From positions 198,280-253,766 of the forward strand of contig NZ_KL591017.1 in the NCBI RefSeq assembly GCF_000716335.1: a stretch of 55,487 bases of DNA, in the 5' to 3' direction. Source of the stretch: Streptomyces sp. NRRL S-118. GTDB lineage: Bacteria; Actinomycetota; Actinomycetes; Streptomycetales; Streptomycetaceae. Shown one piece after another: positions 16,022 to 18,163 of the stretch (the first letter of the stretch is position 1; each line of letters opens with the position of its first letter). Made by a program: the position numbers and the translations under genes. The notes under the pieces are model-generated. The model saw only the letters and a program-made list of their open reading frames with translations. It was not told the DNA's origin and made no database searches.

Positions 16022-16083
16022 TTGCTGGAACGATGGAACCGAACGACGGAACACGGCATCAGCCGCAGGCTCAGGAGGCCACG

Positions 16084-16689
16084 ATGGCCGGCACCACCGC
16101 ACCGAAGACCGTTCACCTCGCCGTCTACGACACCTACGCCGACTGGGAGACCGGCCACGCCACCGCCTGGCTGGCCCGCGGCGGGTACGAGATCCGCACG
16201 GTGGGACCGACCACCGAACCGGTCACCACCACCGGCGGCCTGCGCATCACCCCGGACCTCGCCCTGGCGGACCTGCGCCCCGAGGACAGCGCCCTGCTCA
16301 TCCTGACCGGCGCGGACCTGTGGGACACCAGCGACGACCTGGCACCCTTCGCCGCGGCGGCGCGCACCTTCCTGGACGCGGGTGTGCCCGTCGCCGCGAT
16401 CTGCGGCGCCACCGCCGGGCTGGCCCGGGAAGGCGTGCTCGACGACCGCGCCCACACCAGCGCCGTCCCCTTCTACCTCTCGGTCACCGGCTACCGGGGC
16501 GGCGAGCACTACGTGGAGGCGGACGCCGTCACCGACGGCGACCTCATCACGGCCGGCCCCACCGAGCCGGTCGCCTTCGCCCGCGAGGTCCTGGCCCGGC
16601 TCGGCGTGTTCGAGGGCGCCAAGCTGGACGCCTGGTACCGGCTGTTCCACGAGTCGGACCCCGCCGCCTACGAGGAGCTGAACGGGTGA
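16084..16689 (+). CDS. DJ-1/PfpI family protein (type 1 glutamine amidotransferase-like)
   Basis: 201 aa from the ATG at 16084, chosen for the AGGAGG 7 bases upstream; an ATG at 16033 lies without such a site. Class I glutamine amidotransferase-like fold: VHLAVYDTYADWETGHATAW at the N-terminus and the nucleophile elbow VAAICGATAGLAREG with Cys in AICGAT. The family includes chaperones/deglycases, stress proteins and isonitrile hydratases. It sits behind a double operator and overlaps the following MarR gene by 3 bases, suggesting induction by a small molecule sensed by MarR. Confidence 0.9.
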   Translation: MAGTTAPKTVHLAVYDTYADWETGHATAWLARGGYEIRTVGPTTEPVTTTGGLRITPDLALADLRPEDSALLILTGADLWDTSDDLAPFAAAARTFLDAGVPVAAICGATAGLAREGVLDDRAHTSAVPFYLSVTGYRGGEHYVEADAVTDGDLITAGPTEPVAFAREVLARLGVFEGAKLDAWYRLFHESDPAAYEELNG

Positions 16690-17165
16690 GCGAGCCGAGC
16701 GGCCCCGACCGCGCGCGGCAGGACCTGCTCACCGGCACCGCGCTCGCCGTCTTCCGGCTCAACGGCCAGTTGCTCGCCGTCTCGGAGAAGCTGGCCCGCC
16801 CGGCGGGACTCACCGCGGCGTGGTGGCAGGTGCTCGGCGCCGTCCTGCGCGAACCGCTGCCCGTCTCGGGGATCGCCCGCGCCATGGGCATCACCCGCCA
16901 GAGCGTCCAGCGGATCGCCGACCTGCTGGTCCGGGAGGGCCTCGCCGCGTACGTCCCCAACCCCGCGCACCGGCGGGCGAAGCTCCTCACACCCACCCGG
17001 GCGGGCCGGGAGGCCGTCGCCCGAATAGACCCGGGGCACGCGGAGCTCGCGGCCCGGCTCGCCGCCGAGCTGGGCGAGGAGGCGTTCGCGGAGACCGCGC
17101 GGGCGCTGGAGCGCCTGTCGCAGGCCCTCGACGCCATCACGGACGACGCCGACCCACCGGGGTAG
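16686..17165 (+). CDS. MarR family transcriptional regulator
   Basis: 159 aa, GTG start at 16686 overlapping the DJ-1 stop (GTGA). Winged helix-turn-helix: WQVLGAVLREPLPVSGIARA, MGITRQSVQRIADLLVREGL and wing PNPAHRRAKLLTPTRAG; helical dimerisation segments are at both ends. It is likely to be the repressor of its own operon through the tandem palindromes at 15988-16021. No conserved Cys suggesting a thiol switch is seen. Confidence 0.92.
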   Translation: MSEPSGPDRARQDLLTGTALAVFRLNGQLLAVSEKLARPAGLTAAWWQVLGAVLREPLPVSGIARAMGITRQSVQRIADLLVREGLAAYVPNPAHRRAKLLTPTRAGREAVARIDPGHAELAARLAAELGEEAFAETARALERLSQALDAITDDADPPG

Positions 17166-17168
17166 GGT
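17163..17168 (+). promoter_or_regulatory. Candidate -10 element of the PrmC-like gene leader
   Basis: TAGGGT overlaps the MarR stop codon (17163-17165). It resembles Streptomyces vegetative -10 boxes and would start a leader of about 125 nt. The -35 region is weak, so read-through from the DJ-1/MarR operon is also possible. Confidence 0.35.
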
Positions 17169-17193
17169 GGGGACTTCGACATCGGCACGACCC

Positions 17194-17293
17194 AGGAGGT
17201 GAGACCCATCAACGCCACGTCAGGCCGGGTGCTCACCTCTCACGGCTCGTAGGGACACAGGACCCCTCGGGAGCACCCGCAGCTCCCGAAAGG
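17194..17293 (+). promoter_or_regulatory. Attenuator-type leader with mutually exclusive helices, upstream of PrmC-like gene
   Basis: Three pairings can be drawn. 1:2 is GAGGTGAG (17196-17203, including a Shine-Dalgarno) with CTCACCTC (17232-17239). 2:3 is CGGGTGCTC (17226-17234) with GAGCACCCG (17271-17279). 3:4 is TCGGGAGC (17267-17274) with GCTCCCGA (17282-17289), which reaches the GAAAGG ribosome site of the gene. 1:2 and 3:4 exclude 2:3, the classical attenuator layout. A ribosome stalled early in the upstream ORF would cover 1, let 2:3 form and free the gene start. The helices are read directly; the regulation is inference. Confidence 0.7.
17199..17252 (+). CDS. Putative leader peptide (upstream ORF) of the attenuator
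   Basis: Short frame ending at TAG 17250-17252. Read from GTG 17199 it gives 17 residues (VRPINATSGRVLTSHGS). The strong AGGAGG at 17194-17199 is however ideally spaced (8 bases) for an ATC codon at 17208, giving a 14-residue peptide INATSGRVLTSHGS from an unusual start. The coding strand overlaps helix segments 1 and 2, so translation would directly control their pairing. No annotation pipeline would call this; expression is unproven. Confidence 0.45.
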   Translation: MRPINATSGRVLTSHGS

Positions 17294-17299
17294 CTTTCC

Positions 17300-18163
17300 A
17301 TGGCTTCGCATTCCGCGTCCCGTCCCGCAGGTCCCGCACACCCCTCCGCTGTCTCAGCCGCTTCCTCCGCCCCCGCCGCCGCTTCCTCCGTCAGCGCTTC
17401 CGTCGTCGCCCGGCTCCGCGCCGCGGGCTGTGTCTTCGCCGAGGAGGAGGCGGAGTTGCTGCTGTCCGCGGCCCGGTCCGCCGGGGAGCTCGACGCGATG
17501 ATCGGGCAGCGGGCCGCCGGCCGCCCGCTCGAACACGTCGTCGGCTGGGCCGAGTTCCGCGGGCTGCGGATCGCCGTCGACGACGGTGTCTTCGTACCGC
17601 GCCGCCGCACCGAGTTCCTCGTCGAACGGGCCGAGGAGCTCGCGCGGCCCGGCGCCGTCGTCGTCGACCTGTGCTGCGGGTCCGGCGCACTCGGCGCCGC
17701 GCTCGTCGCGGCAGTGGACGGCGCCGAACTGCACGCCGCCGACATCGACCCCGCCGCGGTGCGGTGCGCCCGCCGCAACATCGCCGCGGCCGGGGGCCGG
17801 GTCCACGAGGGCGACCTGTACGCGCCACTGCCGCGGGACCTGCGCGGCCGGGTCGACGTGCTGCTCGCCAACGTGCCGTACGTCCCCACCGGGGAGGTGG
17901 AACTGCTGCCCGCCGAGGCGCGGGTGCACGAGGCACGGGTCGCGCTCGACGGAGGCCTGGACGGGCTGGACGTCCTGCGGCGCGTGGCCGCCGAGGCGGC
18001 GGCCTGGCTGGCCCCGGGCGGGAGCCTGCTGTTCGAGACCAGCGAGCGCCAGGCCGGCGCGGCCACGCGGATCACCGCGGCCGGCGGCCTCACCCCGCGG
18101 GTGGTGCACTGCGAGGACCGCTACGCCACGGTGGTCATCGCGACGCGGCGGCGGGAACCGTGA
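17300..18163 (+). CDS. PrmC/HemK-like protein (glutamine-N5) methyltransferase paralogue
   Basis: 287 aa, ATG at 17300, ribosome site GAAAGG. An Ala/Ser/Pro-rich N-terminal tail (about 35 residues) is followed by a HemK-like helical domain (GQRAAGRPLEHVVGWAEFRG), the conserved FVPRRRTEFLVERA (family FiPRPeTE), SAM motif VVDLCCGSGALGAAL and the catalytic-loop motif. The last reads NVPYVP instead of the canonical NPPYVP. PrmC methylates the GGQ glutamine of release factors; the housekeeping prmC normally sits by prfA, so this is likely a paralogue with another or conditional role. It sits behind an attenuator-like leader, and its 3' end overlaps the convergent gene by 29 bp. Confidence 0.85.
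   Translation: MASHSASRPAGPAHPSAVSAASSAPAAASSVSASVVARLRAAGCVFAEEEAELLLSAARSAGELDAMIGQRAAGRPLEHVVGWAEFRGLRIAVDDGVFVPRRRTEFLVERAEELARPGAVVVDLCCGSGALGAALVAAVDGAELHAADIDPAAVRCARRNIAAAGGRVHEGDLYAPLPRDLRGRVDVLLANVPYVPTGEVELLPAEARVHEARVALDGGLDGLDVLRRVAAEAAAWLAPGGSLLFETSERQAGAATRITAAGGLTPRVVHCEDRYATVVIATRRREP

Follow-up and report, generated by a model that had tools for sequence, protein, structure and literature searches.

A conserved leader with a putative AUU- or AUC-initiated upstream reading frame before a PrmC-related methyltransferase gene of Streptomyces

The window analyzed here, a stretch of 55,487 nucleotides from Streptomyces sp. NRRL S-118 (contig NZ_KL591017.1, positions 198,280 to 253,766), contains a gene for a PrmC/HemK-related methyltransferase behind a leader in which a first-pass annotation had read three mutually exclusive helices and a small upstream open reading frame (uORF). 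This raises the question of how, and in response to what, a ribosome on so short a reading frame could control the gene that follows. Our preferred answer, to which we assign a probability of roughly 65%, is a cis-acting ribosome-mediated attenuator, most likely translational, that senses the occupancy of the uORF start. Judged by the comparison of related leaders, helices 2:3 and 3:4, the class of the start codon, a stop position that does not depend on the frame, the spacing and the association with the gene are features of this element. Start-site occupancy as the signal, a gate formed by initiation factor 3 (IF3), translation inhibitors as inducers and a translational rather than a transcriptional output are what we infer beyond that. 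The parts of the leader and the gene, in positions of the window, are as follows.

17163..17168, forward strand: likely -10 box TAGGGT, as judged from the sequence, overlapping the TAG stop of a MarR-type gene
17194..17202, forward strand: extended Shine-Dalgarno sequence (SD) of the uORF, AGGAGGTGA, which holds most of segment 1; GGAGGTG is near-invariant in alignment A2 (see below)
17194..17199, forward strand: AGGAGG core of the uORF SD, from the sequence
17196..17207, forward strand: segment 1, pairing with segment 2 (helix 1:2) as a perfect complement
17208..17252, forward strand: uORF with AUC start, 14 codons (INATSGRVLTSHGS) and TAG stop at 17250..17252, assigned by start-codon comparison
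17226..17239, forward strand: segment 2, with segment 1 or 3 as partner; helix 2:3 covaries
17267..17279, forward strand: segment 3, with segment 2 (putatively opening) or 4 (putatively closing) as partner
17282..17298, forward strand: segment 4, comprising 17282..17289 (local hairpin) and 17293..17298 (covarying form around the gene SD)
17288..17293, forward strand: SD GAAAGG of the methyltransferase gene; CCGAAAGG is near-invariant in A2, but was also used to pick the leaders for A2
17300..18163, forward strand: PrmC/HemK-related methyltransferase gene (TIGR03704, putative protein N5-glutamine methyltransferase) with N-V-P-Y replacing N-P-P-Y, by profile score and motif

On direct reading, all three annotated helices are perfect complements. 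Helix 1:2 joins 17196-17203 (GAGGTGAG) to 17232-17239 (CTCACCTC) over 8 bp, helix 2:3 joins 17226-17234 (CGGGTGCTC) to 17271-17279 (GAGCACCCG) over 9 bp, and a local form of helix 3:4 joins 17267-17274 (TCGGGAGC) to 17282-17289 (GCTCCCGA) over 8 bp, in each case without mismatch. This local hairpin is present as annotated, but the form of 3:4 that covaries throughout the genus is a different one and pairs segment 3 with the bases immediately 3' of the SD of the methyltransferase gene; its equivalent in the window is 17269-17274 with 17293-17298, including two G-U pairs. The annotated AGGAGG and the small ORF ending with TAG were also found, the ORF having 14 codons and an ATC start that had not been named before. 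Since the single-sequence fold of the window leader is only a little better than chance (z = -1.87; 9 of 200 shuffles equally stable), the weight of the evidence rests on comparison. Rfam gave nothing relevant for the window at the gathering threshold, nor for the window leader at E values up to 10. Among PrmC-related leaders, G-preceded TAnnnT sites, of which a single leader may hold several, concentrate 38-42 and 49-55 nt 5' of the uORF start.

The codon located 8 nt after AGGAGG in the window is ATC (17208-17210), and no ATG, GTG or TTG is found in the window at a usable distance from AGGAGG. GTG at 17199-17201 was considered as the uORF start and rejected: it overlaps the SD, and the aligned leader L011 has no GTG there yet keeps AUU. 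Across 142 distinct PrmC-related leaders, obtained by de-duplication of 149 of which 50 had been added as top matches of the covariance model R1 (see below) and come partly from the same genomes, the start codon is AUU in 103 and AUC in 35, with CUG, AUA, GUC and GUU once each; AUG, GUG or UUG occupies the start in none of the 142. Nor does any frame of 99 leaders of the genus contain an ATG, GTG or TTG whose first base falls from -8 to +4 relative to the uORF start. The motif with which leaders were found favours C or T as third base while tolerating up to six substitutions, and 85 of the 99 matches had none or one, so that a third-base G would have shown up. A tree built quickly from 72 of the proteins requires at least 15 changes among ATT, ATC, GTC and GTT, or two if ATT and ATC are pooled; as many of the changes are transitions, part of the start-codon bias is mutational. 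For infC, the gene for IF3 itself, 20 loci of the genus (L031 and L374-L392) were compared: the SD-spaced start after GAGGAGG is AUC in 19, and in the 20th (L385) the ATC appears by eye to be displaced upstream by an in-frame repeat. Initiation of infC at this AUC is probable in view of the SD and of earlier work; the spacer between SD and start is 4 nt at infC and 8 nt at the uORF.

Conservation was assessed at 110 PrmC-related loci of the genus, which comprise the 30 best and 80 picked from the search listing and are not a random draw. The leader motif was found at 99 of them. Of the other 11, four have the gene overlapping the end of the upstream gene, L035 has a leader with an indel, L047 a broken leader, and five have remnants at most. 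Of the 99 leaders, 94 were retained after removal of duplicates and on the presence of a site like CCGAAAGG; alignment A2 contains 84 of these, the other ten being omitted as leaders with long inserts, leaders of the ATTCCCCGCC type or near-duplicates. In A2, helix 2:3 is paired in 93.4% of the cells with 25 doubly changed cells, and the SD-enclosing helix 3:4 in 89.2% with 46 doubly changed cells, a level reached by none of 500 shuffles for either helix. Within the latter helix, column pair 161-205 is GC in 53 and CG in 19 of the 84 leaders, and column pair 162-204 is GC in 39, AU in 22 and GU in 17. Joint changes link columns 161 and 162 of segment 3 to their segment 4 partners, and column 162 to segment 2 as well. 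Two further measures for 3:4, the number of pairs with double changes and of further pair types, were no higher than in shuffles of A2. Kinship among sequences can push covariation above shuffles without any structure; controls in which the helices were slid, with covariation scores of 0.143 against at most 0.077 for helix 2:3 and 0.349 against at most 0.116 for the SD-enclosing helix 3:4, argue against kinship alone as the explanation of the excess. The loop between segments 1 and 2 is conserved in A2 as well (ATTACCGCTGT). The idea of three mutually exclusive conserved helices is borne out by comparison, with covariation in helices 2:3 and 3:4 and with conservation but weak covariation in helix 1:2. 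In the comparison of leaders across Streptomyces that the first-pass annotation had proposed as a check, the class of the uORF start and the position of its stop are likewise kept.

Signs of reading were found in the position of the stop codon. Where segment 2 has its usual spacing of 19 nt from the first base of the uORF start (125 of the 142 leaders), the frame set by AUU or AUC (AUY) stops at codon 16-22 in 112 of 125 leaders. A stop in this range occurs in 33 leaders for frame +1 and in 1 for frame +2, and these frames stay open past 25 codons in 76 and 108, respectively. Another 13 leaders carry an indel ahead of segment 2, which makes the spacing 18 or 20; all 13 retain an AUY-frame stop at codon 17-21 while the peptide downstream of the indel is altered, though several of them are alike and probably belong to one clade, which makes fewer than 13 independent cases. 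This pattern looks selected, as expected if selection acts on reading and on where the stop lies but not on the peptide. The stop position was used since codon-position variability was not clear-cut as a coding test, RNA pairing constraining codons 7-9.

A ribosome bound at a start codon covers up to roughly +15. With the 19-nt spacing, segment 2 would be wholly free only when a ribosome stands on the start codon or on codon 2, and the logic proposed earlier, in which segment 1 is masked by a ribosome near the beginning of the uORF and segment 2 becomes available to segment 3, fits this geometry. With no ribosome on the uORF, helices 1:2 and 3:4 would form and enclose the ribosome site of the methyltransferase gene. 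A ribosome held on the AUY start or codon 2 would mask segment 1 and leave segment 2 (from +20) just beyond its footprint, so that helix 2:3 could form and the gene would open, and a ribosome reading on to the stop would pass segment 2 and let 3:4 close again. The non-canonical start would make initiation weak and perhaps IF3-sensitive and would keep the switch quiet, and the peptide itself would not be the sensor. Most of the other genes behind such leaders would have the same switch with AUG or GUG, often beneath a stress promoter.

Calculated energies, which describe equilibrium folds of truncated RNA, are balanced between the helices, the medians of the duplex energies being -18.8, -19.5 and -16.8 kcal/mol for 1:2, 2:3 and 3:4. 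Removal of the stretch covered by a start-bound ribosome raised the median 2:3 pairing from 0.015 to 0.43 in 93 leaders. The median energy for opening the gene start region was 10.4 kcal/mol with the ribosome at the start, 12.9 with segment 2 covered and 11.9 in the free RNA; of the 93 leaders, 71 were cheaper to open in the start state than in the state with segment 2 covered, and 77 cheaper than as free RNA. When segment 2 was shuffled, the opening energy went up to 12.6 and was higher in 80 of 93 leaders. Masking of segment 3 gave a median of 10.9, which is below the value with segment 2 covered in 72 of 93 leaders and no lower than that of the start state. This measure was chosen after another, the unpaired probability of the SD, had failed. 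As to whether the gene SD is closed in the off state, the covarying 3:4 around GAAAGG and the opening energies speak for it, and the unpaired probability of the SD does not.

Several results weigh against the start-occupancy attenuator. The probability that the 6-nt SD is unpaired was higher with a ribosome at the start in only 39 of 93 leaders, and its median moved slightly the wrong way (0.34, against 0.36 in the free RNA). The window's own leader reaches a 2:3 pairing of only 0.11 with a start-bound ribosome, and its opening energy shifts little (11.3 at the start, 12.9 with segment 2 covered, 12.3 free, 11.6 with segment 2 shuffled). Helix 1:2 is paired in 83.7% of the cells in the 84 leaders, but its covariation is little above controls, the number of doubly changed cells being reached by 124 of 500 shuffles; weak covariation is expected here because segment 1 doubles as the SD. 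In addition, loading of ribosomes on an AUY start may be so infrequent that a stall would make no difference. Finally, the same leader can be read as a transcription attenuator, which is considered together with the other alternatives after the related leaders have been described.

Leaders of this kind form a family within Actinomycetia and are not confined to PrmC-related genes. R1, a covariance model of the PrmC-related leader, matched at E <= 0.01 in 111 of 121 genomes sampled from the family and in 81 of 296 sampled from the class; a single genome has up to five such places, part of which were read. A second model, R2, was built from 17 hydrolase and monooxygenase leaders and matches 92 of the 296 class genomes and 33 of 114 genera. 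As R2 recovers the window leader with 48 bits (E 7e-9), the leaders look homologous. Two weak R1 matches elsewhere in the window's own genome (22.3 and 19.8 bits) were discarded, no leader being apparent when the sequence was read. The other genes behind the leader encode an alpha/beta hydrolase (ABH), a monooxygenase (ROX), of which one copy scores 834.9 bits against a cut-off of 800 in the rifampin monooxygenase model, a patatin-like protein (PF01734, 41.6 bits at L229, the other loci being assigned by likeness) and a GNAT acetyltransferase (PF00583, 30.0 bits). A pattern scan found at least 119 leader-like stretches, of which 80 were listed, and the genera among the matches listed include Rhodococcus, Nocardia, Amycolatopsis, Micromonospora, Kribbella, Nonomuraea and Arthrobacter. 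Among the 80 listed, 66 could be classed by gene (35 hydrolase, 15 PrmC-related, 11 monooxygenase, 4 GNAT and 1 patatin) and 14 could not. The PrmC-related ones start with ATT (11) or ATC (4), the other 51 classed ones all with ATG or GTG, and the 14 unclassed ones with ATG or GTG in ten and ATT or ATC in four cases. In a second sample with repeats removed, all monooxygenase (15), patatin (8) and GNAT (3) leaders start with ATG or GTG, as do 31 of 41 hydrolase leaders, the remaining 10 of which start with ATC or ATT. At L176 and L181 the first ~40 codons of the monooxygenase gene match the N-terminus of the alpha/beta hydrolase, and short matches like these occur at several loci; it looks as if a leader together with a hydrolase 5' end had captured a new gene.

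Part of these leaders lies behind promoters resembling those of the WblC regulon, for which PMC7157823 gives a consensus of GAAAWY 3 nt upstream of the -35 element and 16-19 nt to TANNNT. A relaxed form of this pattern occurs upstream of 14 of 15 monooxygenase, 20 of 41 hydrolase, 3 of 3 GNAT and 0 of 8 patatin genes; loci L217, L227, L252, L137 and L213, which had no motif match, were left out of this count. The strict form occurs at 9 monooxygenase, 11 hydrolase and 1 GNAT gene and at no patatin or PrmC-related gene; its rate in letter-shuffled sequence, a control that covers the strict form only, was 0.0. WblC control of the window methyltransferase gene was considered and rejected, the relaxed pattern being present in 0 of 147 PrmC-related upstream regions. 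The connection to translation inhibitors, as suggested by the first-pass annotation, therefore stands indirectly, via related leaders behind WblC-like promoters, and not through a promoter of this type at the window gene. Of the hydrolase leaders, 19 of the 31 that start with AUG or GUG have the pattern, against 1 of the 10 that start with AUY; by these patterns, AUY starts accompany non-WblC-like promoters in two gene families. The patatin genes, with AUG or GUG starts and no WblC-like promoters, are an exception to this association. The patatin-like loci concerned (L215, L216, L221, L222, L224, L229, L231 and L237) have the same leader type.

How do other explanations compare with the start-occupancy attenuator? 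A transcription attenuator, in which 3:4 would halt RNA polymerase through Rho or as a hairpin without U-run, could draw on 3:4 being a strong GC hairpin and on the transcription attenuation proposed for Streptomyces ABCF uORFs in PMC12421871. No terminator-like site is found at 3:4, however, the sole site detected lying within the gene, and the covarying 3:4 surrounds the gene SD, so that we regard transcription attenuation as unlikely too, placing it after the IF3 sensor discussed in the next paragraph. The absence of a terminator-like site also speaks against the amino-acid-operon type invoked earlier, as does the lack of any run of a regulated codon or of a single amino acid in the uORF peptides that were read. 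A peptide- or amino-acid-specific attenuator would require the nascent peptide to stall with a drug, as in erm leaders, or on starved codons. Peptides are indeed alike across many PrmC-related leaders (ITAVSGRVL) and across sister leaders (MNAVSTWVL), but their RVL or WVL part falls within segment 2 and is thus fixed by pairing, and the 13 leaders with a shifted frame, though several represent one clade, change the peptide and keep the stop. Peptide-specific stalling of the erm type, which the first-pass annotation had invoked, is thus not supported: single-nucleotide indels change the peptide and leave the length of the ORF, and the 19-nt distance to segment 2 fits a hold at the start codon or codon 2, not later. 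We consider a peptide-specific mechanism quite improbable.

A further reading is a sensor of IF3 or of initiation fidelity, rather than of drugs, in which the methyltransferase would serve the initiation or termination machinery. It would account for the retention of the AUY start through the at least 15 codon changes, for the likeness to infC, whose AUC also follows a strong SD (spacer 4 nt instead of 8), and for the variants GUC and GUU, which have no G at position 3, though the one CUG does. On the other hand, the sister leaders with AUG or GUG retain the same helices, so that the AUY start is not needed for the switch, and in this geometry ribosomes that initiate often and do not pause should close the gene; we hold a pure IF3 sensor to be unlikely, but place it ahead of the remaining alternatives. 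A protein-binding RNA or riboswitch, in which the ORF would be untranslated and AUY a degenerate start, could explain the conserved loop ATTACCGCTGT between segments 1 and 2 and the missing canonical start. It is the least probable of the explanations considered, given that the stop position is retained in the AUY frame only, that the same start position is AUG or GUG in most homologous leaders of other genes, and that a strong SD lies at the right distance, besides the window leader being without an Rfam match.

Erm-type attenuators have mutually exclusive helices, an SD closed in the off state, a uORF in segments 1 and 2, and a defined stalling peptide several codons in. The present leader shares the exclusive helices and the uORF in segments 1 and 2, but its frame and peptide are free and its geometry fits the start codon. 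Autoregulation of infC runs through a non-canonical start codon and IF3; infC resembles our leader in its strong SD and conserved non-canonical start, AUC in the same genus, and differs in that the poor codon starts the gene itself behind a 4-nt spacer instead of an upstream ORF that would control a fold behind an 8-nt spacer. Conserved non-canonical starts behind extended SDs, including that of infC, which is AUA in S. aureus, are described in PMC13009471. According to PMC12421871, lincosamides and pleuromutilins stall ribosomes at the start codons of Streptomyces uORFs. By their description there, the leaders of the ABCF genes are5sc and tiaA of Streptomyces coelicolor resemble the present one in their short uORF and alternative helices, and in the start-codon hold and the connection to antibiotic stress that are proposed for it. 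They differ in their proposed terminator/anti-terminator and in uORFs of 3 and 9 codons, one with a TTG start, where the present leader has an enclosed SD and an AUY start (PMC12421871). The wblC/whiB7 attenuator, as described in PMC7157823 and PMC10727445, is also an actinobacterial uORF leader; it answers to ribosome-targeting drugs, as the present one may, and many leaders of the present family lie behind WblC-like promoters; whiB7 however has a Rho-independent terminator, and the genes behind the present leaders are others. In the open full-text literature searched, a scope outside of which most subscription papers fall, no report of the leader came up, and a term search of the main text of a novel-RNA survey (PMC11109978) and of the S. 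lividans re-annotation (PMC8079986) gave no report of it.

A putatively regulatory non-AUG uORF kept across many species, set against homologous leaders that mostly have AUG or GUG, amounts to a natural experiment on the purpose of a weak start codon and opens to test the idea that bacteria use leaders to sense arrested initiation or the activity of IF3. It would also add a translational layer to drug-response genes of the WblC/WhiB7 type, including the one that passes the rifampin monooxygenase model. More tentatively, and with the odds rather against it, the leaders of the whole class might report a ribosome parked on the start codon irrespective of the peptide, while the PrmC-related AUU/AUC branch might read initiation fidelity, be it IF3 activity or a 30S subunit waiting on a poor codon. 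The methyltransferase could then be an effector in a stress response to start-codon arrest that runs alongside WblC/WhiB7 without belonging to it.

For the methyltransferase, the leader would give a first clue to its role. The product of 17300-18163 scores 403.8 bits in TIGR03704 (cut-off 248.8) but does not reach the cut-off of the true-PrmC model RF_mod_PrmC (172.8 versus 199.1 bits); the earlier designation as PrmC/HemK paralogue holds in the sense of a PrmC-like protein, not of a true PrmC. At the site of the PrmC motif, N-P-P-Y, 65 of 80 loci were readable and have N-V-P-Y (51), N-A-P-Y (11) or N-T-P-Y (3), and none of them N-P-P-Y. In view of this replacement, the target may be something other than a release factor. 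Homologues at E <= 0.001, with canonical PrmC counted in, are present in 199 of 199 genomes of the genus, and in 188 of these the best match is better than 1e-60.

The surroundings of the gene vary. At L020, L027, L033 and L046, which are without leader, the methyltransferase gene overlaps the end of an upstream gene that by eye resembles one for a glutathione peroxidase. At L005 (G168:C1) the middle of the leader has been lost naturally, and the AUU start with a weaker SD now immediately precedes the methyltransferase in frame. In the window, a DJ-1/PfpI-type gene and the MarR-type gene (16033-17165) lie directly upstream of the leader.

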